From: Oscillatoria sp. HE19RPO
Lineage (GTDB): Bacteria; Cyanobacteriota; Cyanobacteriia; Cyanobacteriales; Laspinemataceae
Assembly: GCF_024220515.1 (NCBI RefSeq)
Contig: NZ_JAMXOT010000132.1
Location: forward strand, 1-32,233
Direction: 5' to 3'
DNA: 32,233 nucleotides
Notes under the pieces: model-generated
Told to the model about the DNA's origin: nothing
Databases searched by the model: none
The model's input: the letters and a program-made list of their open reading frames with translations, nothing else
In this document: piece after piece, positions 2,430 to 18,821 of the stretch
How positions within the stretch are numbered: the first letter of the stretch is position 1
Layout: every line of letters begins with the position of its first letter
Translations under genes and position numbers: made by a program

Positions 2430-2717
2430 ATGTCGCAAATTTCATTGAATCAAAAAATATCGGCTAGACCCACAGTAATCGCTCAAGATTTAGCCGGAGA
2501 GTCGGTTTTGCTGGACTTGCAAACCGAACAGTATTTTGGCTTGGATGATGTCGGTACTCGCATCTGGCAAACCCTGACGGCAAAAGATTCGATTCAGAGT
2601 GCGATCGCTGCTTTGCGAGAGGAGTATGACGTAGAACCGGAACAGTTACGGCAAGATGTGGAAAATCTGATTCAAGAATTATTAGCCAATGAACTGGTTG
2701 AAATTAGCGATTCGTAA
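2430..2717 (+). CDS. Lasso peptide B1 protein (PqqD-like RiPP recognition element)
   Basis: This 95-aa stand-alone PqqD-family protein is the RiPP recognition element that binds the precursor leader and presents it to the B2 protease and the C cyclase. It shows the family layout: a beta-hairpin with GESVLLDLQTEQYFGLDDVG at residues 24-43, then a three-helix winged-helix-like part with IWQTL, LREEYDVEP and VENLIQELLANELVE. B2 starts inside its 3' end (29-bp overlap), so the pair is translationally coupled. The precursor whose leader it should bind is 7.5 kb away on the other strand at 10255-10419. PqqD-like proteins also serve other RiPPs; the adjacent B2 and the distal C, A and kinase genes make lasso the best call. 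Confidence 0.9.
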   Translation: MSQISLNQKISARPTVIAQDLAGESVLLDLQTEQYFGLDDVGTRIWQTLTAKDSIQSAIAALREEYDVEPEQLRQDVENLIQELLANELVEISDS

Positions 2718-3210
2718 ATCTCGCAGTTTTTGGAGGTTGGAGGAGTGCGATCGCTGGCTATTATTGCAAGCCTTTGTGTTGCTTTTTTTCGTGGCAATTT
2801 CGTTAAAATTGAGGGGATTGAAGCAGACGCAAGCGGCTTTAGCTAGAAAGCGATCGCTCTCTAAATTTCCCCTTTCTAATGAAGAGAAAACTGCTAAAAT
2901 TGTGCAGACAACTCCCATGGTGCGCTTAGCCGCGAGATACTGCCAACCTTGGGCGAATTGCCTGAAAAAATCCCTCGTGTTGTGGGGGTTGTTACGTCAC
3001 AAAGGAATTGATAGCGAGTTGCGGATTGGAGTGCGACGGGAGGAGGGAAAATTTGAGGCACACGCTTGGGTGGAATGTGAAGGATTCGTGCTGAATGATA
3101 CGGGGAACGTGCGCGATCGCTTTGCCACCTTCGATCGCCCCATTGACGCATTGCCGATCCCCCCAACCCGCCTTAAAAAGGGGGGCTTAGAGAATTCTCC
3201 CCCTTTTTAA
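2689..3210 (+). CDS. Lasso peptide B2 leader peptidase (transglutaminase-like)
   Basis: This 173-aa cysteine protease of the lasso B2 family removes the leader from the precursor. The likely triad is Cys91 (in WANCLKKSLVLWGLL), His125 (in FEAHAWVE) and Asp137 (in VLND). A hydrophobic stretch at residues 24-39 is usual for B2 proteins. The C-terminus is odd: the last 15 or so residues (PTRLKKGGLENSPPF) are encoded by a dispersed palindromic repeat at about 3161-3227, so the native tail seems to have been replaced by repeat DNA. All catalytic residues lie upstream of this and the enzyme may still work. The start overlaps B1 by 29 bp. Confidence 0.9.
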   Translation: MNWLKLAIRKSRSFWRLEECDRWLLLQAFVLLFFVAISLKLRGLKQTQAALARKRSLSKFPLSNEEKTAKIVQTTPMVRLAARYCQPWANCLKKSLVLWGLLRHKGIDSELRIGVRREEGKFEAHAWVECEGFVLNDTGNVRDRFATFDRPIDALPIPPTRLKKGGLENSPPF

Positions 3211-3307: not shown

Positions 3308-3366
3308 TAGCCCGCGCAGGCGGGCTTCGTCCGTGTAGCCCCACCCTTGAGGGTGAGGGTTTTTTG
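3308..3366 (+). repeat. Two-hairpin terminator-like element, copy A
   Basis: Stem 1 is GCCCGC-GCAG-GCGGGC, followed by the linker TTCGTCCGTGTAGCC. Stem 2 is CACCCT-TG-AGGGTG, followed by AGGG and a six-T run. A second conserved block, ATTCCAACAAATAAATCA, lies upstream at 3253-3270 and also precedes copy D. This copy lies downstream of lasso B2 and about 40 bp before the Nif11 start. Other copies are at 16267-16325 (minus), 28711-28768 and 32158-32233. Confidence 0.75.
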
Positions 3367-3406
3367 GATATTTTATTTTTTGGAGTTCCCTAAAAGGAAA
3401 AATGGG

Positions 3407-3628
3407 ATGATGTCCGTACAAACTGCGTTCCAATTTATCCAAAAACTGCGTAACGATGATGGGTTAAAAACTCGACTTTTATCCCAGAATTCAACCCCTG
3501 ATTTAGAAAGCTTTGTCAAACTGGGGGCTGAACTCGGTCTAATTTTCACCGTTGAAGAACTCGAAGCCGCACACAAACATGACTGGGGGATGCGTTGGTT
3601 GCTTTATCAGTCGGGAGAGAAAGATTAA
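3407..3628 (+). CDS. Nif11-domain small protein
   Basis: This 73-aa protein is a full Nif11 domain: SVQTAFQFIQKLRNDDGLKT, then LESFVKLGAELGLIFTVEEL, then a short basic/aromatic tail WGMRWLLYQSGEKD. Nif11 domains occur as leader peptides of RiPP precursors and as stand-alone small proteins in cyanobacteria. This one lacks the double-glycine cleavage motif and a core region, so it does not look like a precursor itself. I place the start at the ATG at 3407 (or the adjacent ATG at 3410), preceded by AAGGAAA at 3394-3400. A longer frame to 3347 would be encoded by the upstream repeat element. Its stop overlaps the stop of the converging P450 gene by 4 bp. Confidence 0.8.
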   Translation: MMSVQTAFQFIQKLRNDDGLKTRLLSQNSTPDLESFVKLGAELGLIFTVEELEAAHKHDWGMRWLLYQSGEKD

Positions 3629-5514: not shown

Positions 5515-6279
5515 TCAATCTGCCACAATATCGATTAAAGGAAAAGACAGAGACCACTTCACTGGATCTCGCAACGCGGCATCGATATGAGAGCGAAGGA
5601 TTCCCAATTGTCCGGGAGGTTGCCGATCGCCATAAATGCGATCGAGATTTTCCTTCCACAGAGGGAACGTTCGCAGAGAATAAAATCGCCGATCTTGCAT
5701 CCATTTAATTTTCCAACCCGCTGACTCTACATGATAAATGAGTTCCGAAACGGTGCAAAATTCCATCGATTTACCAAACGTAATTCGTTCTCCCCAGTAA
5801 TTGTCTGCCACACAGTTGACTGAGAGAATCAGGCGGGTTGCCAAGGGGCGAAGGCGACTCAGCAAATCCGCTTTTTCTCGAATATGAGAGAGAAATTCTA
5901 GCAGAAACAGGATATCGTAATTTTCGTTAATTTCATCGTGTTCCACATCTTGACAGCGAACGTTTAGGCCGATGCTTTGACAATATGTGGCTTGTTTTGT
6001 ACTAATCGTAATTCCTTCTACCGCACAACCGCACTCCTCAACGAGCATTTTCCCTGGACCTCCCCAACCGCAGCCGATATCCAAAACTTGCGAACCCCGA
6101 GGAATATAAGGATAAAAATTTCTCACGGTTTGCTTTAACCCTGTTTCTAAATCTTCCGAACCCCGAAAATACCCAAAATGGTAATGCAAGTTTGCACCGA
6201 TAATCTGTTGCCATTCTTCAAGGGATTCGGTAGAATAAAAGTTATCTAAATCTGCGTTTTCCTCAAACCGCTGGGTCAT
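5515..6279 (-). CDS. SAM-dependent methyltransferase (cyclopropane-synthase/SMT-like)
   Basis: This 254-aa class I methyltransferase has motif I QVLDIGCGWGG at residues 64-74, the ribose-binding region VEGITISTKQATYCQ, and a YDILFLLEFLSHI post-motif. The GCGWGG plus GITIS combination is characteristic of the cyclopropane-fatty-acid-synthase / small-molecule C-methyltransferase group. The N-terminal NLHYHFGYFRGSEDL fits the substrate-lid region of that group. Only 9 bp separate it from the upstream gene at 6289-7356, so the two are co-transcribed and probably act together. The substrate is unknown; a natural-product role is likely from the neighbours, which include the P450 and the lasso genes. 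Confidence 0.85.
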   Translation of the reverse strand: MTQRFEENADLDNFYSTESLEEWQQIIGANLHYHFGYFRGSEDLETGLKQTVRNFYPYIPRGSQVLDIGCGWGGPGKMLVEECGCAVEGITISTKQATYCQSIGLNVRCQDVEHDEINENYDILFLLEFLSHIREKADLLSRLRPLATRLILSVNCVADNYWGERITFGKSMEFCTVSELIYHVESAGWKIKWMQDRRFYSLRTFPLWKENLDRIYGDRQPPGQLGILRSHIDAALRDPVKWSLSFPLIDIVAD

Positions 6280-6288
6280 TGTTTCTTC

Positions 6289-7356
6289 CTATTTTACAGA
6301 TAACCACTGATGTTCAAACCACAGATAAGCTTTAGCCTCTAGGTTACAAGGCGATCGCCAACTGATTTTAATGTGACTCAACCGGCGATCGAAAACCGTA
6401 AACCGTTCCCTCTGCTGCAAAAGCGAAGCCGCAATTAAATCCCTCGGCCACACTGCTGGTGAATTCGTTGGATGGCTTTGACCGGGCCAGTTTAATAATG
6501 CTTCTCTTTTTTCCCGTTCGCACAGTCCTAATTCTACCAAATAATCCAGTAAAATAGACCAGCGAGGTTCGCTTGGGGGTTGTTTGAAAAAAATACATTC
6601 TAAGCCTATTTGGGGATAAATTTTATTTCCCACATCCAGACAAACCGTGATGCGATCGCACAGCGCAAACAACTGCCTCATCAACGCTTCCAGTTCCGTC
6701 GTTTCCCCCTGCCAACCCACCGCTTGCAAATAGGGAATTAACCCATCCGGTGGCAAGCGTTTGACATTAACGCGCAACGCCGGAAAATTTCGGGAAAGCA
6801 TTGCGCCGATGTGACTGACAAACACGCTTTCCGGACAAGCACTAAAGCAGCGATCGAGATTGTCTTGCCACTCGCGCCAACCCGCTTTACCCAGGAGTAA
6901 ATCGAGAGATTTTTGGGCAATTGGATAGGTGGAAACCGCAGGCGATACCTCTTGCGGCAACCCGAAGAAAATCGCCGGTAGGGGCAGAAAATTTGAGCAA
7001 TTTTTAACATCAAACTCCAGCCAAATTTCCGGAATCGCCTCAATACTGGATTGCCACGATTCCAAAAAATCCTGCAATTTCCCCCAACCAGAATCCACAG
7101 AAATGCCCTTATTGGCAATAGCAGCAGCCACAAATTCTCGCAATAACGCCAACTCTCTTTCTTCCCGAACAATGCACTGCTGCAAATCCACTTGGGGGGC
7201 ATTAGGATTGAGGCGACATTCAAACCCACCCCGCAGAATGGGCGCAAGATTGCCTGCCAAGGATTTTAAAGCCAAAACTGCATCGGATCCAACCAATGTT
7301 GGCATCAGATTCGGCAACAGGACATCCAGGGATTCAGTGAGGGGTGAAATGAGCAT
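6289..7356 (-). CDS. Unrecognised 355-aa protein coupled to a methyltransferase
   Basis: I do not recognise this family. The protein is soluble, with no signal peptide or transmembrane segment. Its second half alternates beta-strands that each end in a charged or aromatic residue: PEIWLEFDV, LRVNVKRL, ITVCLDVGNKIYPQIGLECI, HIKISW and AKAYLWFEHQW, with helices between. PRWSILLDYLVELGLCEREK and the GQSHPTNSP loop look conserved in character. Such repeated strand-helix units would suit a barrel or ABBA-like enzyme, but no catalytic motif confirms that. It lies 9 bp upstream of the methyltransferase gene and 18 bp downstream of a Uma2 gene, so it is in a - strand operon. An enzyme acting on the same substrate as the methyltransferase is the simplest guess. 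Confidence 0.8.
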   Translation of the reverse strand: MLISPLTESLDVLLPNLMPTLVGSDAVLALKSLAGNLAPILRGGFECRLNPNAPQVDLQQCIVREERELALLREFVAAAIANKGISVDSGWGKLQDFLESWQSSIEAIPEIWLEFDVKNCSNFLPLPAIFFGLPQEVSPAVSTYPIAQKSLDLLLGKAGWREWQDNLDRCFSACPESVFVSHIGAMLSRNFPALRVNVKRLPPDGLIPYLQAVGWQGETTELEALMRQLFALCDRITVCLDVGNKIYPQIGLECIFFKQPPSEPRWSILLDYLVELGLCEREKREALLNWPGQSHPTNSPAVWPRDLIAASLLQQRERFTVFDRRLSHIKISWRSPCNLEAKAYLWFEHQWLSVK

Positions 7357-7374: not shown

Positions 7375-7935
7375 TCAAATAGCAAAAATGTCCGACACGG
7401 GAATTGAAATATCGGAAAAGGCTAAAGGAGAAACGGTTTCTGACGCGGAAAACTCGCGCTGTTGTCGATAGTCTTCGGCTTCAGGAAAACGATAAACGAT
7501 TAATTTTCGAGCGTTAATATCCACAACCCAGTATTCCGGTATTTTTTCTTGAGAATAGAGTGCTTTTTTGGTTGAAATATCGTAACTGCGAGTGGCTTTG
7601 GACACTTCAACGAGAAGTTCGATATTTTCAGGAAAGGGGTGATGGTCGATGTATTGCGATCGCGGGAGTTTGGCAACCACGATATCCGGTTCTGGTTCGG
7701 AGTTAGATAGTGCGATCGGTTTATTTTCTCGGACATACGCCCGTCCGACGGTTAACCGTTCCAGTATTTTTGCCAAATTTTCTTCAAAATAAGCGTGTTC
7801 TGTGCCTTCAGGAGATATTTCTAAGATGAGTCCGTCTATCAATTCGAGGCGACGTTCTTTCAGAATGCCGCATTCTACCATTTGATGGTATTCTTCCACA
7901 GTGAAATGGGCAATTTTTGGGGATATGACAGCCAT
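7375..7935 (-). CDS. Uma2-family (DUF820) PD-(D/E)XK-like protein
   Basis: This 186-aa protein belongs to the Uma2 family, a restriction-endonuclease-fold group that is hugely expanded in cyanobacteria and has no settled role. The fold markers are FTVEEYHQMVECG and LELIDGLILEISP at the N-terminus, EPEPDIVV, then ELLVEVSKATRSYDISTKKALYSQEKIPEYWVVD, which holds the E-V-S...K active-site pattern. I chose the ATG at 7935 because GGAGG lies 7 bases upstream. A longer frame to 8019 would start in sequence that does not resemble the family. Confidence 0.88.
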   Translation of the reverse strand: MAVISPKIAHFTVEEYHQMVECGILKERRLELIDGLILEISPEGTEHAYFEENLAKILERLTVGRAYVRENKPIALSNSEPEPDIVVAKLPRSQYIDHHPFPENIELLVEVSKATRSYDISTKKALYSQEKIPEYWVVDINARKLIVYRFPEAEDYRQQREFSASETVSPLAFSDISIPVSDIFAI

Positions 7936-8019
7936 CAATTCCTCCGTTTTTTTCGCAACTGAAAATATGGCAAGGGCGTCAGCAAAGCTCCCCCATTTCT
8001 GGGTAGCGCCAAACACCAA

Positions 8020-8434: not shown

Positions 8435-9001
8435 GTGACCAGCAGCATTACTCAATCCTTGACGATTGAAGAATTTTTGAAGCTTCCAGAGACCAAACCT
8501 GCGAGCGAATATATTAACGGCGATATCGTACAAAAACCAATGCCAAAAGGAAAGCATAGCCGATTGCAACTTAGGCTTTGTAACAGTATTAATCTCATCG
8601 CCGAACCCCCGCAAATTGCTTGTGCTTTTCCCGAATTACGCTGTAGTTTTGGCATCCGCTCTATTGTCCCCGATATCGCTGTTTTTTTCTGGTCGAGAAT
8701 CCCATTTGATGCTGACGGGGAAGTTCCCAATGACTTTTTATTCTCCCCGGATTGGGCCATTGAAATTCTCTCACCGGAACAAAGTTCAAATCGGGTGATT
8801 GGCAATCTTCTCTATTGCTTGGAGAATGGTTGTCAGTTAGGGTGGTTAATCGATCCAGCCGATCGCTCTATTTTAGTTTTCCGCCCAGAACTCCCACCAT
8901 TACTTTTGCGAGGTAGCGATCGGCCACCCGTTCTAGAGTCTATTGATTTAGAGCTAACGGTGGATGGGATTTTTGAGTGGCTGAAAATGACGAGGAATTA
9001 A
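8435..9001 (+). CDS. Uma2-family (DUF820) PD-(D/E)XK-like protein
   Basis: This 188-aa second Uma2 protein is divergent from the one at 7375. It has the fold markers SLTIEEFLKLPETKPASEYI at the N-terminus, GDIVQKPMPKGKHSRLQ with the characteristic PMP-K-H loop, IVPDIAVFFW, and PDWAIEILSPEQSSNRVIGNLLYCLENG as the active-site segment, where the usual Lys of the S-x-K run is replaced by neighbours. It starts at GTG (8435) with GAGGA 11 bases upstream; no ATG fits the family start. It ends 26 bp before the stop of the converging lasso kinase gene. There is no evident role in the lasso pathway. Confidence 0.85.
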   Translation: MTSSITQSLTIEEFLKLPETKPASEYINGDIVQKPMPKGKHSRLQLRLCNSINLIAEPPQIACAFPELRCSFGIRSIVPDIAVFFWSRIPFDADGEVPNDFLFSPDWAIEILSPEQSSNRVIGNLLYCLENGCQLGWLIDPADRSILVFRPELPPLLLRGSDRPPVLESIDLELTVDGIFEWLKMTRN

Positions 9002-9026: not shown

Positions 9027-10046
9027 TTAACGAAGCAATGCCGAACTGACGATACCGGCTACATCTTTCACGATCGCATCGCACAGTTGGGGTAATGCCT
9101 CCAAACTATCGCTGCGAGTTATTTTTCGCACTGGTACTGTCGTAGCAACGCGACTCAAAGCGGCAAACTCTCGCGCTTGCTTATCCATATCTAAGTTGAA
9201 AAAGCTTACCGATCGCTGTGCCATCAACCTCATAGCCGCCATTGCCGGGGGAATGGGTTCTACAGTGGGTTTGGCTAACCCCGGTTGTCGGGGTTCGAGA
9301 ACGTAAATCGCGGCTAAAGGCAAAGGTTCGCCTTGAAACTGCCATCGGGGGGTACTGCTTGCACTGAGCGCAGTCGAACCGCTATTATCCCTTAAATCCA
9401 CAAAGCGTTTCTCGGAAAAGCTGAACACTCGCGGCAAATCCGACTCCGATCCGTACAGAGCATTAATGGTTTTAGGCCATAATCGGATGCGCGGATATCC
9501 CGGTTGGACGAAGAAATACTCTGCGCGACTGCAAACAACGGCAATATCATCAGAAAGAATCGCATATCCCCGACTCGCCAGAGTCGCTGCAGTGGTGGAT
9601 TTACCGGCTCCACTCTCCCCCACAATCGCGATCGCTTGCCCACCGATTCCCACCACGCAAGCATGAAGGCAAAGCGTACCCCGCAATCGCAAAGCACAAG
9701 CCAAAGCCGGCCCTAATAACATGGCAGTGATTTCTTCGATTACCGAACGCTCCCAACTTACGAAGATATGACTGCCCTCAGAGTCAATCTCGAAATCAAT
9801 TTGTCCGTCCCCGCGAAACCAGAGATGGAAATAAGTCCCGTCTTCTTTGGAGATTAAATTAACTCCAGAGGAAAACTCCTCTACATCTGGTGACGGCAGT
9901 TCAAACACTCCATTTAATTCCACCCAAATATCCACGGTTGCATCAGCCTTGGCAGGCATCAAACCCGGTAGAGGGTGGTTCGCTTCTAGCGTTAAGCCAT
10001 AAGCTGTGTATTGATAAAGCTTACTCAGTCCAGCCAAACTACTCAT
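9027..10046 (-). CDS. Lasso-peptide HPr-kinase-like Ser kinase
   Basis: This 339-aa protein resembles the C-terminal catalytic domain of HPr kinase/phosphorylase. It has a P-loop GESGAGKST at residues 143-151, an upstream LHACVVGIGG strand pair, and SDDIAVV at 165-171 with the acidic pair that would hold Mg2+. The first 110 residues form a variable beta-rich domain. Homologues in lasso clusters (ThcoK and PsmC types) phosphorylate the C-terminal Ser of the precursor. The adjacent precursor at 10255-10419 ends in Ser, consistent with this role. The order on the minus strand is cyclase, precursor, kinase, with a perfect hairpin between precursor and kinase that may lower kinase expression. The start is the ATG at 10046 with weak purine-rich AGAGAA upstream. 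Confidence 0.88.
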   Translation of the reverse strand: MSSLAGLSKLYQYTAYGLTLEANHPLPGLMPAKADATVDIWVELNGVFELPSPDVEEFSSGVNLISKEDGTYFHLWFRGDGQIDFEIDSEGSHIFVSWERSVIEEITAMLLGPALACALRLRGTLCLHACVVGIGGQAIAIVGESGAGKSTTAATLASRGYAILSDDIAVVCSRAEYFFVQPGYPRIRLWPKTINALYGSESDLPRVFSFSEKRFVDLRDNSGSTALSASSTPRWQFQGEPLPLAAIYVLEPRQPGLAKPTVEPIPPAMAAMRLMAQRSVSFFNLDMDKQAREFAALSRVATTVPVRKITRSDSLEALPQLCDAIVKDVAGIVSSALLR

Positions 10047-10215
10047 TTCTCTAGTTCAGGTTTGAGAGGGGATTAGCACCCCCTCATTTCCCAGTCTTTA
10101 TGCGCTTTAAAATTGTTTTTATAGCGGGTCTCATCTTGGCGATTTACAGAATTTTCTGGATTCGGTGTCTGCTTGAGAATCACAGATTAGGGCTACCTAC
10201 GTCAAGAATGAAACC

Positions 10216-10239
10216 CGCTCTCGCTTCAGAACGAGAGCG
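10216..10239 (-). terminator. Hairpin after the lasso precursor gene
   Basis: A perfect 8-bp stem (CGCTCTCG at 10216-10223, CGAGAGCG at 10232-10239) with an 8-nt loop lies 15 nt past the precursor stop codon in the precursor-to-kinase gap. On the minus strand no strong T-run follows (GGGTTTCATTC), so it is more likely a partial terminator or 3'-end stabiliser that raises precursor mRNA relative to kinase mRNA. Confidence 0.6.
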
Positions 10240-10254
10240 AAAAACTCATTTTAA

Positions 10255-10419
10255 TTACGAAACATAGATATTAGGAGATGCTCCCCCGCCATCACTAGGG
10301 TTGAAGGGGTTATTAACAGTCAGCGTCAGCTCGCTGACATTGCCAAATTTTCGCAGTTGAGGGCTGTGGTATGCTTTTTTGCTGGAAGAATTAATGTTGT
10401 TGGTAGATGCTTTAGACAT
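10255..10419 (-). CDS. Lasso peptide precursor (A peptide)
   Basis: This 54-aa peptide was found by reading the gap between cyclase and kinase. The leader contains YHSPQLRKFGNVSELTLTV (residues 17-35) with the conserved Tyr17, Pro20, Leu22 and Gly26 and a Thr near the end, which is the signature bound by PqqD-like B1 proteins. Taking Thr34 as the usual -2 Thr, the core is NNPFNPSDGGGASPNIYVS (19 residues). Asp43 then falls at core position 8, giving an 8-residue macrolactam ring closed to Asn1, a tail starting with GGG, and a C-terminal Ser for the kinase. Asn as residue 1 is less common than Gly, Ser or Cys. AGGAG lies 8-10 bp before the ATG. There are 66 bp from the upstream cyclase stop, so it is co-transcribed with it. 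Confidence 0.85.
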   Translation of the reverse strand: MSKASTNNINSSSKKAYHSPQLRKFGNVSELTLTVNNPFNPSDGGGASPNIYVS

Positions 10420-10485
10420 GGTTTTTTCTCCTAAATCGGGGTTTCAAATCAACGATAAAACTGGACTGAACTGAACTTCTGGACG

Positions 10486-12309
10486 CTATTGGTGGTGCAG
10501 CCAGTATGCCAGTTGCAGGGGTGGGATAGCCTGATTGTAACTGGCAGGGGTGAGTTCTCCCAAAGCTTGCAGTTTTTGCAACAGGGATTCAGTCTCCACA
10601 TAAGCGCTGAGGGCTGGCGTGGCTCCCAGTTCTACCATCCAAGGCTGAATCCCTCGCTGCTGCATTAAATTGTAATGAGCAAATCCTCGCAGGGGTGTTT
10701 TAGCTCGCCGTAACACCGCATCCGGCAACCGGCCTTTCATCGCTTCCCTGAGCAAAAATTTACTTTCAAACCAGGGGACGGGCGGCACCGACAGCAAGTA
10801 TAGCACCAAGCGCACATCGAAAAACGGAAAGCGAACTTTAAGGGGAAAACCCGTGAAGCCCGGATCCGACCAAGCAAATATATTCGACCACAAGGGAGCA
10901 AAAGTCATCCCGTAGCGGTCTGTGTGCGGTGTCGCGGTCAAGATTTCTTCCAGTCGCGCTTTCAAGTTGGCTCGTTCTGCGAAATCGGGGTTAAACCAAT
11001 CGGGAAAATTGATATCTTGAGAGCCTTGCTGCCCTCCTTTAAGCCAACGGCGCAACTGAGTCCGCAATCCCAACCGCGGCAGGCGACGAAAGGAGCGAAT
11101 GTAACCCAACGCATCCAGCATAAAATGCCCAACCCGACCGCTTTGTAGCAACTGATACCAGTAAGACGGCGATGGATAAAATGCCGGATCGCCGCCAAAC
11201 CCAGCCAGCAGAACTCGACTGTATCCAGCGATGCGCCGGTTAATCTCTACTTCAGCAATTTGGGTGGGAATGAGGAGGGGTTCGGGATAGAGATATTTTG
11301 GCCGTTCTGGAGGGGCTTGCTGGATGTAGTCTTCGGCTACTAGGTATTCAATTGGGAAGCCCGCCATCTGCGCGACTTGGGTGGCATAGTCTCCTTCGTC
11401 GTCGGTCAAAAGCTGCTTGTAGATAATCGTGTAAGCTCGAAAATCCACCGGCGAACCCGTTGCCGTCATTAACTGATAGGCAGTGGCGGCAATACTGGTG
11501 GAGTCCATGCCCCCGCTTAAGTGACTGCCAGCACTATTGGTTCGCAGTCTATCTGCAACCGCCCGGTCAAATAACTCCCGAAACTGCTCCACATATTCCG
11601 AGGGGTCTTGGTAACGCAGGTATTCTACCGCTTCCGGCAACTGCCAATAATGCCGGATCCTCATCTGACCTTCGCACCAAGTCAGACTGTGGGCGGGGGG
11701 CAACTTTTGGATATCGGCAAAAGTGGTGGTGGCGACATCCCTATTCATGCTAAACAGCAGGAAGTCGCCGATCGCCCCTTCGTTGAGCCTATCCGATACC
11801 TCCGGGTGCAACCTCAAGCCGTTGAGATGGTTGCTAAAAACCAAGCCGCTGCCAATTTGAGCGTAGTAAAAAGGCACCACCCCAAATTGGTCTCGGGCGC
11901 AAAATAAGCGCTGCTGCGGGCTATCCCAAATCCCAAAGGCAAAATCCCCACTCAGGTACTCCAGACAGGCTTCTCCCCAAGTGTGGTAGGCGTGCAACAC
12001 CAAGTCAACATCTGGCGTGGGATCCTCGATATGGCGACCCAGACCCCGTAGCTGGTGGATTAACTCGTCGCGTCGATCCAGGCGGATATCTCCAGCAATC
12101 CAAACTTCCCCCTCAAAACTGAGCGGTTGTCGTTCCGTTGCCGATTCCCAAGTGGTTCGCAAAAGGGCGTGACCGAACCCCACATGACCCTCATTCCAGA
12201 TATCCCGGGCGTCGGGGCAGACAGTTGCCATCAACTCGGTCATTTGCTGTAACAGGGTGGGGTCAATGGGTTGACCGTCGCCGTTGACAATTCCAACAAA
12301 ACCGCTCAT
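10486..12309 (-). CDS. Lasso cyclase (C protein, asparagine synthetase-like)
   Basis: This 607-aa enzyme adenylates the Asp/Glu side chain of the core and closes the macrolactam ring. The C-terminal synthetase domain carries the ATP-pyrophosphatase loop HLSGGMDSTS (SGGMDS at residues 265-270). The N-terminal class II amidotransferase domain is intact in length (GHVGFGHALLRT, SFEGEVWIAGDIRLDRRDEL, FAFGIWDSPQQRLFCARDQFG) but starts MSGFVG. The catalytic Cys2 of true asparagine synthetases is replaced by Ser, as expected for lasso cyclases, which do not need glutaminase activity. It is the first gene of the - strand unit cyclase-precursor-kinase. Only 38 bp separate its start from the divergent oxygenase gene. 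Confidence 0.95.
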   Translation of the reverse strand: MSGFVGIVNGDGQPIDPTLLQQMTELMATVCPDARDIWNEGHVGFGHALLRTTWESATERQPLSFEGEVWIAGDIRLDRRDELIHQLRGLGRHIEDPTPDVDLVLHAYHTWGEACLEYLSGDFAFGIWDSPQQRLFCARDQFGVVPFYYAQIGSGLVFSNHLNGLRLHPEVSDRLNEGAIGDFLLFSMNRDVATTTFADIQKLPPAHSLTWCEGQMRIRHYWQLPEAVEYLRYQDPSEYVEQFRELFDRAVADRLRTNSAGSHLSGGMDSTSIAATAYQLMTATGSPVDFRAYTIIYKQLLTDDEGDYATQVAQMAGFPIEYLVAEDYIQQAPPERPKYLYPEPLLIPTQIAEVEINRRIAGYSRVLLAGFGGDPAFYPSPSYWYQLLQSGRVGHFMLDALGYIRSFRRLPRLGLRTQLRRWLKGGQQGSQDINFPDWFNPDFAERANLKARLEEILTATPHTDRYGMTFAPLWSNIFAWSDPGFTGFPLKVRFPFFDVRLVLYLLSVPPVPWFESKFLLREAMKGRLPDAVLRRAKTPLRGFAHYNLMQQRGIQPWMVELGATPALSAYVETESLLQKLQALGELTPASYNQAIPPLQLAYWLHHQ

Positions 12310-12347: not shown

Positions 12348-13010
12348 ATGTTAGACCAATTAACCCTATTCGAGCGTTTGGGGGTCTTCGTCATGCGAGA
12401 CTTCCTCGATCGCCAGCTTTGCCAGCAAATTTTAGCGGAGACTCGTCAAGCCAAGAAATTTCGACCGGGCGAAATCCACCTGGGCCAAGGAAAATCTGCA
12501 GTGGATGAAACCATTCGCAAGGTTGAGCAAACCAAATTGTCCCCATCCATCGTTGAAACAGTAGGCCAGAAACTCGGAGCGATTAAGCACCAATTGGAAG
12601 CAAAGTTTAAGGTGAAATTGGACGCTTGTCAAGGCCCTAACTTTTTATTCTACCGAAAAGGTGGCTGTTATCTCCCCCACAAGGATCGGGATTTTGGGAA
12701 GGATTACCAATATGTGAACCAAAGGCGACGAGTCTCTACGATAATTTTTGTCAACGGTGAAGGACAGACTGGAGATTGCGATTCTGCCAATATCGAGACC
12801 TATGAGGGCGGGGCATTAATGTTTTATGGTTTATTAAAAGATGAGAAAGCCGCTCGGTTGGGTTTGTCGCTCAATGGGCAACGGGGCTTGTTGATAGCTT
12901 TTGACAGCGCTATAGTGCATGAAGTCAAGCCCGTGACAGCGGGAGAGCGGTTGACGATTGTCAATTGGTTCTTGGGAGAAGAGGAATCAGAAAAGGGGAA
13001 GGGTTCCTAA
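12348..13010 (+). CDS. 2OG-Fe(II) dioxygenase (prolyl 4-hydroxylase-like)
   Basis: This 220-aa P4Hc-type oxygenase has the iron facial triad His111-x-Asp113 (in YLPHKDRD) and His191 (in SAIVHEVKPV), with Arg201 (GERLTIVNWF) as the 2-oxoglutarate carboxylate ligand. The rest is the double-stranded beta-helix with VSTIIFVNGEGQ and YEGGALMFYG. Known relatives hydroxylate Pro, Asp or other residues of peptides. It is divergently transcribed 38 bp from the cyclase and directly precedes the exporter, so it is a strong candidate tailoring enzyme. The predicted core contains three Pro, the ring-forming Asp and several Asn as possible targets. It starts at the ATG at 12348; the ATG at 12343 is out of frame. 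Confidence 0.9.
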   Translation: MLDQLTLFERLGVFVMRDFLDRQLCQQILAETRQAKKFRPGEIHLGQGKSAVDETIRKVEQTKLSPSIVETVGQKLGAIKHQLEAKFKVKLDACQGPNFLFYRKGGCYLPHKDRDFGKDYQYVNQRRRVSTIIFVNGEGQTGDCDSANIETYEGGALMFYGLLKDEKAARLGLSLNGQRGLLIAFDSAIVHEVKPVTAGERLTIVNWFLGEEESEKGKGS

Positions 13011-13044
13011 CTTGACCGGATTGCCAGGAGTGCGATCGCTCTCT

Positions 13045-14883
13045 ATGTCAATATCGCCCCTCAAATCATTACGAACTTTGAAAAACAAGCTCAAAAATAA
13101 ACTGCAACTCCTAGAAAACCTGAAAAGAGCCATTCGTTTAGTCTGGCAAAGCACTCCCCTGTGGAGCGCTATCACGACGATTCTCTCGATCGTGCAAGGC
13201 ATTTTACCCTTAGTCTCCCTCTATTTAATGAAACGGATCGTCGATGCCGTCACCGCAGGCATTGGCGCGGGTTCTGCTGCTTTTTCCGAGGTGCTGCTGC
13301 TGGTCATTCTTGCCGGATTCACCGCTCTGATTGCCGATTGTCTGCGCTCTTTATCCGGATATGCAAGCGAGGCTCACTCCCAAATTGTTACGGATTTTGT
13401 CCATGACATTTTGCACGCTAAATCTATTGAACTCGATTTGGAATATTACGAAAATGCCCAGTTTTATAATGCCCTGCATCGCGCCCAACAAGAAGCGGTT
13501 TATCGCCCTCAGCGCATCCTGAATAGTTTGGTGCAGTTGGCACAAAATGGCATTTCTCTGATAGCGATCGCAGCTTTGTTAATCTCCCTCCATTGGGCGA
13601 TCGCTGCAGTATTATTAGCCGCAGCACTTCCCGGTTTATTCGTCCGGTTAAACCATACCGGCAAGCTCTATCGTCAGCAACGGGGTTGGACGCTCAAAGA
13701 GCGCATCGCTTACTATTTTCATTTCATGCTCGTCCATGATTCCTATGCCAAAGAAGTGCGATTGTTCGATTTGGGTTTTGGATTTCGCCAGCGCTATCGC
13801 CACCTGCGCGACTCGATTCGTCAGGAAAAATTGGCTCTGGCTAAATGGCGATCGCAGGCGGAATTAATCACTCAATCCAGCAGCACTTTTGCTGTTTTTG
13901 CCGCTTGCGGTTTTATTGCCTATCAAACCTTGATGGGTCAAATTACATTAGGAGGACTGGTGATGTACTATCAGGGATTTCAACGGGGTCAAATTTGTTT
14001 GCGAGAACTGCTTTCCAGTCTTGCCAGCTTGTATGAAAATAGTTTATTTTTGTCTCATCTATACGAATTTTTGGACTTAAAACCCACAGTTGCCAATCCT
14101 TCCCATCCTCATCCCGTTCCCAACCCATTTGCAGTAGGTTTGAGGTTTGAAGGAGTTTCTTTTCACTATCCTCATAGCAGTCGTCCGTTACTGGAAGAGA
14201 TTAATTTAACGATTCCGGCGGGAGAAACGGTGGCGTTAGTAGGAGAAAATGGAGCGGGTAAAACTACGTTAATTAAATTATTATGTCGGCTTTACGATCC
14301 GACGGGCGGACGAATTGCAATTGATGGGATTGATTTGCGGGAATTAAATGCGACAGAGTGGCGACGCGAAATTAGTGTGGTGTTTCAAGATTACGTGCGC
14401 TACAATTTGACGGTGAGAGAGAATATTGGGTTTGGAAATATTGGGAATTTGATTGAGGAAGAAGATATTATCAAAGCGGCGCAAAAAGCGGGAGTAGATA
14501 AAGCGATCGCTAAACTTCCAAAAGGCTACGAGACGACGTTAGGGACGCAATTTGACGAAGGGGAAGAATTGAGTGTGGGGGAGTGGCAAAAAGTAGCGAT
14601 CGCCCGCGCTTTTTTGCGATCGGCTCAAATTCTGGTTCTCGACGAACCCACAAGTGCTTTAGATGCGCGATCGGAATCGGAAGTTTTCGAGCAATTTCGC
14701 CAACTGATTCGAGGCAAAACGGCAATTTTGATTAGCCATCGCCTGTCAACGGTAAAGATGGTCGATCGCATCTTTGTCTTAGAACAAGGCAAAATCGTAG
14801 AAAGCGGATCCCACGAAGAGTTATTAAGTCTCGGCGGGACTTACGCACGATTGTTTGCCATGCAAGCCAAACATTACCAATAA
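13045..14883 (+). CDS. Lasso peptide ABC exporter (D protein, McjD-like)
   Basis: This 612-aa fused permease-ATPase is a half-transporter working as a homodimer in the inner membrane to export the peptide and give self-immunity. The N-terminal half has six predicted membrane segments, starting with LWSAITTILSIVQGILPLVS. The nucleotide-binding half shows Walker A VGENGAGKTT, a signature loop in the variant form SVGEWQKVAIARA (instead of LSGGQ, usual in lasso and related peptide exporters), Walker B ILVLDEPTSALD and the H-loop ISHRLSTV. I start it at the ATG at 13045, because the longer frame from 12958 lies within the oxygenase gene; a GTG at 13030 is an alternative. It ends 2 bp from the converging nucleotidyltransferase stop. 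Confidence 0.92.
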   Translation: MSISPLKSLRTLKNKLKNKLQLLENLKRAIRLVWQSTPLWSAITTILSIVQGILPLVSLYLMKRIVDAVTAGIGAGSAAFSEVLLLVILAGFTALIADCLRSLSGYASEAHSQIVTDFVHDILHAKSIELDLEYYENAQFYNALHRAQQEAVYRPQRILNSLVQLAQNGISLIAIAALLISLHWAIAAVLLAAALPGLFVRLNHTGKLYRQQRGWTLKERIAYYFHFMLVHDSYAKEVRLFDLGFGFRQRYRHLRDSIRQEKLALAKWRSQAELITQSSSTFAVFAACGFIAYQTLMGQITLGGLVMYYQGFQRGQICLRELLSSLASLYENSLFLSHLYEFLDLKPTVANPSHPHPVPNPFAVGLRFEGVSFHYPHSSRPLLEEINLTIPAGETVALVGENGAGKTTLIKLLCRLYDPTGGRIAIDGIDLRELNATEWRREISVVFQDYVRYNLTVRENIGFGNIGNLIEEEDIIKAAQKAGVDKAIAKLPKGYETTLGTQFDEGEELSVGEWQKVAIARAFLRSAQILVLDEPTSALDARSESEVFEQFRQLIRGKTAILISHRLSTVKMVDRIFVLEQGKIVESGSHEELLSLGGTYARLFAMQAKHYQ

Positions 14884-14885
14884 TC

Positions 14886-16112
14886 TCAACGGCTCAAAAA
14901 ATTCCAGATAAAGGCGAGTTTTTCTTTACCAATTTTATAAGTTTTAAGCAACCGAATAATCCGTAATGGATAGTAAACAAAAAACAAAAATCTAGGTAAA
15001 GCAAACGTTTCTTTATCTCTTTCATTGACATTCAAAGCCACACCCGCACAATATCGGGCTTTCCCCCAGAAACCCATCTCCATCATCGGAAACAGTCTTA
15101 ATCCGCCTAGTAGATGACATTTTGCACCCAATTCTGCCCGATAAAAAAGCTGCTTGTGTTGTTCGGCGATTTTTGAAAGTTCGGAAAATTGTTTGGTCTT
15201 TTCTAACAGTTGTTCTGGTAACGGAATTTGCAGGTAAGTTTGAGTGATGAGAATGGCTAATAAAAAATTGCGATCGCTCTCAGTCGTTTCGCATCGCGCC
15301 ATCACATTCTGCCAATCCACATCAGGATATTTGCGAATGAATGCCGCAAAATCGCAAAGCCTTTTCAACAATCCCCAACTGTCTTTCATCCCATGCAAGT
15401 AACCCAGGGCTACAGAATTTTCGGGTGAAAACGTTAGCACAGTTTTTCCAGCAATAGAAATAGTTTGCAATTCTTCAAAAAAAGATTCAGTATCTAGCCG
15501 CCGATAAAACTGTTCGGAAATTAGACCAAAATGCAGGTCGATGTTAACCTTACCATCCTGTCGCACCATTTGAACTTGGGCGTTTTCTGGTTCTTTCGCG
15601 CCCAAATATTTATCGTGGTATCCCTGCTGCATCAGCAACTCTTTGGCTTTGGAAAAATCGGCGGGACGCACCAGAATATCCAAATCGCAGAATTCTCGCA
15701 CTCCCATGTTACCATAAACTAATGCCGCCCAAATTAATCCTTTAAACGGAATTGCCTGAATATCATGGGTGGCGAATAGATCGAGGATTTGAAAGAGTTC
15801 TTTCGTCAGAAATAAATTGCGAGCGAGTCGGGTTTGAGCTTGAATTTGAAGTGGCGCAGCAATAGATGGAGGAATCAGTTCCGGGTGAGTTTGTTTCAGA
15901 CTTTGGTAAAATAGCAGAAATACATTATGCTCCGCTGCTTTTTGGATGAGATAATCCCAATCTAGTTCGGTACGGAGCAGGTGGGCGATTTCACTGGAAG
16001 TTGCGGTACCGAAGTGATAGCGGATGCAGCACAAAAGTAATTCAGCTTCGCGGTTACTTTGGTTAAGGCTGGAGATTGGAGCGTCGGTGTTTTGGGTTAG
16101 ATTTGCAATCAT
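14886..16112 (-). CDS. Lasso-cluster nucleotidyltransferase-family protein
   Basis: This 408-aa protein belongs to the uncharacterised nucleotidyltransferase family (NTP_transf_5 type) that recurs in lasso-peptide loci of cyanobacteria and proteobacteria. The polymerase-beta-like core is IPFKGLIWAALVYGN followed by REFCDLDILVRPAD, where DLDILV supplies the metal-binding Asp pair. The third acidic position is probably in VNIDLHFGL. Helical flanking regions occupy both ends. The family's chemistry in lasso maturation is unsettled; nucleotidyl transfer to the peptide has been proposed for members paired with kinases. It converges on the exporter gene with a 2-bp gap. Its own promoter must lie in the 16113-16361 gap, which holds repeat copy B. 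Confidence 0.85.
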   Translation of the reverse strand: MIANLTQNTDAPISSLNQSNREAELLLCCIRYHFGTATSSEIAHLLRTELDWDYLIQKAAEHNVFLLFYQSLKQTHPELIPPSIAAPLQIQAQTRLARNLFLTKELFQILDLFATHDIQAIPFKGLIWAALVYGNMGVREFCDLDILVRPADFSKAKELLMQQGYHDKYLGAKEPENAQVQMVRQDGKVNIDLHFGLISEQFYRRLDTESFFEELQTISIAGKTVLTFSPENSVALGYLHGMKDSWGLLKRLCDFAAFIRKYPDVDWQNVMARCETTESDRNFLLAILITQTYLQIPLPEQLLEKTKQFSELSKIAEQHKQLFYRAELGAKCHLLGGLRLFPMMEMGFWGKARYCAGVALNVNERDKETFALPRFLFFVYYPLRIIRLLKTYKIGKEKLAFIWNFLSR

Positions 16113-17721: not shown

Positions 17722-17775
17722 CTGCTCCTCTGCCCCCTGCTCCTCTGCCCCCTGCTCCCCTGCCCCCTGCTCCCT
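17722..17775. repeat. 15-bp tandem repeat abutting the second cpcT stop
   Basis: CTGCTCCTCTGCCCC is repeated about 3.5 times (17722-17775) with one base change, directly against the cpcT copy 2 stop codon (TAG on the minus strand at 17774-17776). Such arrays vary in length by slippage. Confidence 0.75.
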
Positions 17776-18370
17776 ACTTCCCCACCACTTCATCCGCAAA
17801 ACTGGCAACGCGCTTGTTGAAGAAGAAGGGGCCAGCCACAGAACCCCAGACGAACTCATCGGTTTCTGGATCCAGACCGCGATCGTGACTGACAAACAGG
17901 TTTTCGTCAATTTCAAACGTGCTATCGAGATAGGTGGTTCTGCCTTTGCGGACAACGATGCAACCTTTACCGGGTTCCACCTCACCTTTGAAACTGGATC
18001 CCGTCCATTCGGTGATAAAGGTAGAACCGGGAATTTTTTCCAACATATCCGGGGTGAGGGCTTCTAGACGCTGGCGATCGCGGGCGGATCCGTAGAAAGA
18101 GGCTTCATCCTGGACCTTGTAGTTTTCGATTTCAATGCGATCGCCCTTGGGGACCAACTTCAACACCCGCACGCGATAGGGCTGATTCAGCATATAATCA
18201 TAAGCCTGCTCTAAATAGAGACTGACCCCATCCAGGAACTCATAAGGCAGGGGCCGCATACAGACCCGAATATGGGCAAAAAACGGCGGATTCTCGATCG
18301 CCTGGTCAAAATTGCTAAAATCTGAGGCCATCCAACGCGCCAAAGTCAGAATATCAGTGGAATGAGTCAT
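17774..18370 (-). CDS. cpcT: CpcT/CpeT-family phycobiliprotein lyase (copy 2)
   Basis: This 198-aa lyase is the paralogue of the one at 367-963 and lies in the same orientation 17.4 kb away. All family blocks are present (AHIRVCMRPLPYE, LEQAYDYML, GSTFITEWTGSSFKGEVEPG, LDSTFEIDENLFVSHDRG, VWGSVAGPFFFNKR). Differences from copy 1 cluster in the C-terminal half, for example EALTPDMLEKIPGST against QSLTPDKLEKIPGSS. The DUF4926 gene lies 205 bp upstream on the same strand. Both copies look functional; they may have diverged in beta-subunit preference or one may simply be redundant. The start at ATG 18370 is the only good option. Confidence 0.9.
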   Translation of the reverse strand: MTHSTDILTLARWMASDFSNFDQAIENPPFFAHIRVCMRPLPYEFLDGVSLYLEQAYDYMLNQPYRVRVLKLVPKGDRIEIENYKVQDEASFYGSARDRQRLEALTPDMLEKIPGSTFITEWTGSSFKGEVEPGKGCIVVRKGRTTYLDSTFEIDENLFVSHDRGLDPETDEFVWGSVAGPFFFNKRVASFADEVVGK

Positions 18371-18575: not shown

Positions 18576-18821
18576 TTACCCGCAGACTAACCGACGAACC
18601 GACAGTAAATCATCAGGCTGTAGAATCTCAATACTAGAAACCGGAACCGTGACGACTGCGATCGATTCTCCCCGGGCATTAAACACCTCTAAAATCGCAC
18701 CATCTTCACCCCCGGTTGGTGAAGGGACATAATCAATTAATGTCGCAATATCACCCCGGTGTAGATTAAATTCTTCCCAGTCTTGTTTCAAAGCAATTTC
18801 TTGATAGAGTTCAGGTTTCAT
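18576..18821 (-). CDS. DUF4926 domain protein (copy 2)
   Basis: This 81-aa protein is the paralogue of the orphan at 2039-2284. The same DUF4926 layout is present: LHRGDIATLIDYVPSPTGGE, DGAILEVFNARGE, VPVSSIEILQPDDLLSVR. Its ATG overlaps the stop of the DUF6883 gene by 4 bp (ATGA type), so the two are translationally coupled and likely form a protein pair. It is the last gene of the ATPase-nSTAND-DUF6883-DUF4926 unit. Function unknown; a toxin-antitoxin-like or effector-immunity pair is an inference from the small size, coupling and the position behind an nSTAND gene. Confidence 0.85.
   Translation of the reverse strand: MKPELYQEIALKQDWEEFNLHRGDIATLIDYVPSPTGGEDGAILEVFNARGESIAVVTVPVSSIEILQPDDLLSVRRLVCG

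Follow-up and report, generated by a model that had tools for sequence, protein, structure and literature searches.

The window analysed here, a stretch of 32,233 nucleotides from Oscillatoria sp. HE19RPO, contains a short open reading frame lodged between two enzyme genes, which raises the question of what peptide it encodes and which of the surrounding enzymes act upon it. The frame (10255..10419, minus strand) codes for 54 residues, starts with ATG and has a ribosome binding site, AGGAG (10428..10432, minus strand), 8 nt upstream; it is flanked by the gene for a lasso cyclase, C (10486..12309, minus strand), and that for an HprK-type kinase, K (9027..10046, minus strand). The initial annotation had read it as the precursor (A) of a lasso peptide, an identification borne out by the complete lasso locus around it and by homologues that occupy the corresponding position in seven further clusters, which bring the distinct precursors to eight. 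The leader residues Y17, P20, L22 and G26 and the terminal Ser54 that it had pointed out are all present in the frame. The near-terminal Thr that it had noted is also there, but two residues, T32 and T34, are candidates for it, and this bears on the core boundary. The leader runs from M1 to about L33-V35, and is followed by Asp43 (10291-10293) as the ring acid, Tyr52 and, in last position, Ser54.

The components expected of a lasso pathway are all encoded in the locus, namely a B1 protein with an RRE, a B2 peptidase and a C protein lacking the glutaminase cysteine, and A, B1, B2 and C are accompanied in the window by the kinase, an ABC transporter and a nucleotidyltransferase. B1 (2430..2717, plus strand) is a PqqD-like leader-binding protein that matches PF05402 above its cut-off and the lasso PqqD models with 65 of 80 bits, and B2 (2689..3210, plus strand) is a transglutaminase-like leader peptidase recognized by NF033537 (103 bits; cut-off 33); both lie at about 7 kb from the precursor gene. 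Profile matches identify C as an asparagine-synthetase-like protein that keeps the LSGGMDS loop, with a score of 360 of 525 bits against the NCBIfam model lass_lactam_cya, i.e. below the curated cut-off. In asparagine synthetases Cys2 is the glutaminase cysteine; in C it is replaced by Ser at position 2 in all eight clusters, and this loss, together with the lasso neighbours, rules out an ordinary asparagine synthetase. C is present as a single copy in its own genome at E<=1e-10. The same genome contains a second B2 (G000:C444:4133-4567; 68% identical) adjoining a second NTP_transf_5 gene, and no second C was found. The exporter, D (12958..14883, plus strand), is assigned by profile matches, and the NTP_transf_5 nucleotidyltransferase (14886..16112, minus strand) by a profile match; the latter is a candidate counterpart of PsmN/BsfN.

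The precursor itself falls below the curated cut-offs of the NCBIfam models lasso_leader_L3 (18 bits; cut-off 19) and lasso_cyano (20 bits; cut-off 33), and the Nif11 model finds no match in it. It does contain the YxxPxL...G...T pattern of lasso leaders. Of the window's 267 ORFs between 30 and 130 aa, the precursor alone carries this pattern, which turned up in 2 of the 84,126 ORFs from 200 dinucleotide shuffles; the pattern had been composed after the family had been seen. Synteny and shuffles together rule out a chance ORF. Between A and the kinase gene there is a 12-pair hairpin with a T-rich tail (10214..10241, minus strand; z -2.86), possibly a terminator or attenuator; terminator-like sites show no enrichment in the stretch scanned (3 found versus 3.0 expected in shuffles).

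To place the locus we searched the whole genomes of 148 relatives, 22 of which (its own genome included) gave a match, and 388 genomes sampled from the class, with matches in 10. The eight distinct precursors that form the subfamily come from the window, Oscillatoria sp. PCC 10802, Cyanobacteria bacterium UBA2566, Roseofilum acuticapitatum BLCC-M154, the genomes G102 and G603, Leptolyngbya sp. Heron Island J (Adonisia turfae CCMR0081 has the identical precursor) and a Candidatus Thiosymbion ectosymbiont MAG, so that six of the seven besides the window are cyanobacterial. The Thiosymbion cluster (L096) lies on a 2.04-Mb contig of the Candidatus Thiosymbion ectosymbiont of Catanema MAG, a gammaproteobacterial and not a cyanobacterial record, which may point to horizontal transfer or to a mixed assembly. 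All eight precursors share the leader motif, Thr32, an Asp-Gly-Gly, a single Tyr and a C-terminal Ser, and none contains Trp. Their clusters uniformly encode C, A, K, a 355-aa protein and a cytochrome P450; a methyltransferase is likewise found in 8/8, as fragments only in G603, and a Nif11 protein in 7/8, with none found in the Thiosymbion locus. B2 adjoins the cluster in the window, Oscillatoria, Leptolyngbya/Adonisia and G603; it is encoded elsewhere in the genome and not near C in UBA2566, Roseofilum and G102 (48-49% identity), and none was found within 21 kb in the Thiosymbion locus. The initial annotation had passed over the 355-aa protein, the methyltransferase, the P450 and the Nif11 protein, which are the most informative neighbours of the precursor gene. 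Searches by tblastn (E<=1e-3 or 1e-2) detected none of the four in nine cyanobacterial lasso loci outside the subfamily (13-20 kb each; L031-L036 and L048-L050), taken mainly from the top of the match list and not a random sample. A core Tyr follows a similar distribution, being present in 8/8 subfamily members and 0/9 of these comparison loci; since 8 of the 74 other precursors overall also have one, it is not unique to the decoration module.

Two of the additional genes are recognized by profile matches, as a SAM methyltransferase of the CFA-synthase/MetW-like kind (5515..6279, minus strand) and a cytochrome P450 (3625..4851, minus strand). An assignment of the former as an isoprenyl-diphosphate methyltransferase is not claimed, the NCBIfam match being weak (25 of 400 bits). 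The window also encodes a 2OG-Fe(II) oxygenase (12348..13010, plus strand; profile match); among the seven other clusters one has it at full length, two retain a short fragment and in four it was not found, Roseofilum and G102 showing a short C-terminal match only. The oxygenase and the methyltransferase (fragments in G603/L083) are optional decorations.

The extent of the ring depends on where the leader is cut. According to PMC10368454, YxxPxL occupies positions -17 to -12 in aligned lasso precursors, Thr stands at -2 in all those reported before, and lasso rings comprise 7-9 residues. The Tyr(-17)/Thr(-2) spacing makes Thr34 residue 1, and the resulting core, TVNNPFNPSDGGGASPNIYVS (T34-S54; 10258..10320, minus strand), has its ring acid at residue 10. 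In the initial annotation the core is instead NNPFNPSDGGGASPNIYVS (N36-S54; 10258-10314, minus strand) with an Asn1-Asp8 ring, which makes Thr34 the Thr(-2) and the leader two residues longer than usual. The Asp of the DGG motif thus lies at position 10 in the window when counted from Thr34 (9-11 across the eight homologues), at 9 when counted from Val35 (8-10) and at 8 when counted from Asn36 (8, 9, 9, 9, 8, 7, 9 and 9). The Asn36 register is the only one of the three that places the Asp at 7-9 in 8/8, it would give rings of 7-9 throughout the cyclase clade described below, and the residue that it takes for Thr(-2) is Thr in 7/8 homologues. On the other hand, it would put Pro, a secondary amine, at residue 1 in 5/8 homologues, and we know of no lasso peptide with Pro1. 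Moreover, Thr34 is replaced by Ala in L083 while Thr32 is kept in 8/8, and Tyr would move to -19 from the published -17 (PMC10368454). The Asn1-Asp8 ring is accordingly not established, though its ring size is in keeping with the rule, and we regard this core start as doubtful. Nor would an Asn at position 1 be unusual, as the initial annotation had held, since 8 of the 74 other precursors have Asn at the canonical position.

The cut after T32-L33, with a Thr1-Asp10 ring (9-11 residues in the homologues), agrees with the spacing of published precursors and with the conservation of Thr32 in 8/8. It also accords with a tree of C (64 rows, 57 of them different; a quick tree with long branches), in which a clade of 27 rows (SH-aLRT 100) is set apart. 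Counted in the standard register, the acid lies at 9, 10 and 11 in 7, 14 and 6 rows of this clade, whereas in the other large group of the tree it lies mostly at 8-9, with two rows at 10; by rule, the ring acid was the first one from position 7 onwards, except in the subfamily and one other, where homology decided. A small residue (A, G, S, N or T) occupies the Thr34 position in 26/27 precursors of the clade, and in the xxAV(D/E)G precursors (L010, L011, L018 and one of L012) the distance from the leader to the core start is constant while that to the Asp shifts by one. However, a ring of 10 residues runs against the range of 7-9 given in PMC10368454, and none was found in the literature covered. 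A later cut throughout the clade would also account for these data; in the 27-row clade either the cut has moved or the rings are larger. We favour Thr34 as the core start with somewhat less than even confidence, the remaining likelihood falling to Val35 or a variable cut besides Asn36. In UBA2566 and G603, a further Asp at standard-register position 8 would allow a standard 8-residue ring. The universal Thr at -2 among the 82 precursors is not evidence, because the search pattern demanded it, and the composition of residue 1 was discarded as a test of register, given that both positions, two apart, favour small residues outside the subfamily. The leader-to-Asp spacing of 9-11 in the standard register (27/27 clade rows) makes the 7-9 rule of ring size testable.

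The kinase, assigned by profile matches and alignment, belongs to a set in which the H-K-D-D residues (motif from PMC9266682) are intact in 61/61 aligned rows (54 distinct sequences), that of the window included. Such a kinase is encoded in the locus of 71 of the 82 precursors, the remainder including short or truncated stretches. The initial annotation had invoked a rule that HPr-kinase-like enzymes in lasso loci phosphorylate the terminal Ser. In PMC9266682 and PMC10368454 this is described for PadeK, PsmK, ThcoK and SyanK, but the target of BsfK is Ser3 (PMC10368454), and outside the subfamily only 8 of the 63 precursors with a kinase in the locus end in Ser, so that the rule is too general. 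These figures, along with a terminal Ser in 14 of all 74 other precursors and in 1 of the 19 that make up the remainder of the 27-row cyclase clade, count against the terminal Ser as the target, and raise the alternative that K acts, like BsfK, on another residue, i.e. a ring Ser or Thr, or Thr34. We consider this alternative rather unlikely, as the terminal Ser is present in 8/8 subfamily precursors and is the sole Ser/Thr after position 34 to be kept in all of them, and the L004 precursor, which has a longer tail, still ends in Ser. With the kinase gene adjoining, Ser54 is the best candidate for phosphorylation; the initial annotation was plausible on this point, and phosphorylation there is likely by virtue of the conservation of the residue rather than the type of kinase. 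In pseudomycoidin PsmN adds a hexose to the phospho-Ser (PMC9266682), and by analogy the NTP_transf_5 protein suggests a further modification of the phosphate. Viral contigs searched with the kinase query yielded three stretches that fit a pattern, with no relative among them.

The 355-aa protein (6289..7356, minus strand) appears to be an ABBA-fold, MppC-related prenyltransferase, judging by its predicted fold and its homology to a PT-like gene from a locus of the mpp type. Neither Pfam nor NCBIfam gave a match for it at E<=0.1, and a search of the PDB by sequence found nothing. Two AlphaFold2 models of the family, obtained with different query sequences of one 7-row alignment, have pLDDT values of 69 and 64 and display five beta-beta-alpha-alpha repeats. 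In Foldseek searches of the PDB the two models recovered 41 and 42 matches at E<=1e-3, and among the matches listed (50 per model; E 2.7e-6 to 4.7e-3, TMq 0.34-0.51) all are named prenyltransferases or known members of the fold, which we take to be of the ABBA type. A PT-barrel is thus predicted with moderate model confidence. This fold is shared, by structure comparison, with the cyanobactin prenyltransferases (TIGR04445: LynF, TruF, PagF), but the likeness is in fold only: profile comparison is not significant and TIGR04445 is unmatched, so that a cyanobactin F-type enzyme is not supported by sequence. A cyanobactin-type prenyltransferase is encoded elsewhere in the same genome (G000:C69:42809-43663; TIGR04445, 192 bits).

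With the 355-aa protein as query, matches came from 51 out of 388 genomes sampled from the order, and six named records were added. It aligns with L090:8036-9229 at 35% identity over 350 columns (E 6e-61), and this relative adjoins a LanM gene and a Nif11 ORF (77-residue leader, ACWRWSG core, Trp at 80 and 82) that matches exactly the description of MppE in PMC11791876. Given this MppE-identical neighbour, we infer L090:8036-9229 to be either MppC or an orthologue of it. According to PMC12715784, MppC geranylates Trp82 of MppE, needs the leader in cis, with provision in trans failing, and does not accept Tyr in place of Trp82; prenylation of a Tyr aided by a separate Nif11 protein would therefore go beyond this precedent. 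The mpp lanthipeptide cluster of Moorena producens (MppC, MppE) resembles the window in its related ABBA-fold enzyme and nearby Nif11, but the window has a lasso cyclase rather than LanM, its substrate has neither a Nif11 leader in cis nor a Trp, and its Nif11 is a separate gene without a core. Several of the relatives of the 355-aa protein in L085-L092 and L167-L186 lie in longer open frames (573-734 aa), and the relatives there have as neighbours Nif11 precursors in which the core often terminates in KIKW or a similar sequence.

The Nif11 protein of the window (3347..3628, plus strand; likely start 3407, 73 aa) scores above the cut-off of Pfam Nif11 and below that of TIGR03798. Like the other Nif11 proteins of the lasso loci it has no Gly-Gly core, and its C-terminus is conserved rather than core-like, which suggests a role as a docking partner. 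Nif11 ORFs (E<=0.05) were found near relatives of the 355-aa protein in 19/29 loci without lasso genes (mainly the top of the match list, not a random sample, with G503 picked after its Nif11 match had been shown), as opposed to 0/20 arbitrary stretches of the same genome set, chosen at round coordinates, and 0/9 lasso loci without the enzyme. The recovery of 6/7 in the lasso loci follows by construction, the profile having been built from the seven lasso-locus copies. C, K, B1 and B2 had no tblastn match at E<=1e-3 in any of the 29 loci.

Taken together, our best reading, for which we see an even chance, is a lasso peptide that carries a phosphate on its last Ser and a prenyl group on the Tyr of its tail. 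From genes, homology, synteny, co-occurrence and a predicted fold we infer all the chemical steps, the core boundary and the residue modified by each enzyme. The product would be a decorated class II lasso peptide, free of Cys, made from the 54-aa precursor. B1 would bind the leader through Y17/P20/L22/G26, K would phosphorylate the side chain of Ser54 on the precursor, and B2 would cut near T32-L33, whereupon C would join the new N-terminus to Asp43 and thread the tail. The MppC-related enzyme would then transfer a prenyl group to the conserved Tyr52, with the core-less Nif11 protein probably serving as the docking partner that such an enzyme normally meets as a leader; the methyltransferase and P450 would trim or extend the prenyl group or the peptide, the NTP_transf_5 protein may place a sugar on the phosphate, and the ABC transporter would export the product. 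Counting against this are the modest pLDDT and TMq values of the prenyltransferase models and the lack of significant profile similarity to cyanobactin prenyltransferases, as well as the Thiosymbion locus in which Nif11 was not found, the fragmented methyltransferase of G603 and the clusters in which B2 lies away from C.

A further consideration is that the substrate of the enzyme could be the Nif11 protein, in which a Trp close to the C-terminus is conserved in 7/7 copies. Two pathways would then lie side by side, an unprenylated lasso peptide and a module of prenyltransferase, methyltransferase and P450 modifying the Nif11 protein; this would fit the association of the prenyltransferase relatives with Nif11 RiPP precursors, which have Trp as the last residue in 18 of their 24 Gly-Gly-type cores. 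However, the three enzymes accompany the lasso genes in 8/8 subfamily clusters versus 0/9 other lasso loci, the C, A, K, prenyltransferase, methyltransferase and P450 genes of the window share one strand, and the core Tyr accompanies the module, while the conserved C-terminus of Nif11 is unlike a core. We therefore hold this separate arrangement to be unlikely. It concerns a different step from the choice of register and from the residue targeted by the kinase, so these alternatives are not mutually exclusive and their likelihoods need not add up to certainty. The fullest version of the preferred reading, in which a lasso-like peptide with a ring of 10-11 residues, a prenylated tail Tyr and a phospho-Ser cap uses the core-less Nif11 as an in-trans leader for an enzyme from Nif11 lanthipeptide pathways, is improbable as a whole.

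If the prenylated and phosphorylated product is real, phosphate and prenyl together on one lasso subfamily would be a new combination, and a modifying enzyme would have moved between peptide pathways with its docking domain brought along as a separate protein. Prenylation of Trp in a lasso peptide is reportedly, by its title, the subject of a 2024 paper in Biochemistry. That lasso peptides can be prenylated on Trp is already known (PMC13352647). The literature search, restricted to open access and thus mostly outside subscription papers, found no prenylated cyanobacterial lasso cluster of such a type. Like the window, loci of the paeninodin/pseudomycoidin/BsfA type (PadeK, PsmK with PsmN, BsfK with BsfN) combine A, B1, B2 and C with an HprK-type kinase; the pseudomycoidin and bsf clusters likewise have a nucleotidyltransferase gene, and paeninodin and pseudomycoidin a C-terminal Ser. 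The window differs from them in the added prenyltransferase, methyltransferase, P450 and Nif11 and in its unusual leader-to-Asp spacing, and its precursor and cyclase match lasso_cyano and lass_lactam_cya weakly, well below the curated cut-offs. The precursor thus belongs to a known kind; its decorated variant is one for which we found no description.

Other genes in and around the cluster include a Uma2-family gene (7375-8019) with a relative at the same place in Roseofilum, and an ORF (8435-9001) that by appearance resembles a Uma2-family gene. Two pairs of paralogues, each a direct repeat with its copies about 17 kb apart, bracket the lasso cluster: one (367-1002 and 17774-18370) encodes presumably CpcT/CpeT-like products with 91% protein identity, and the other (2039-2284 and 18576-18821) an 81-aa protein with 83% identity in DNA. 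These flanks suggest an insertion of the cluster together with duplicated sequences or between them.
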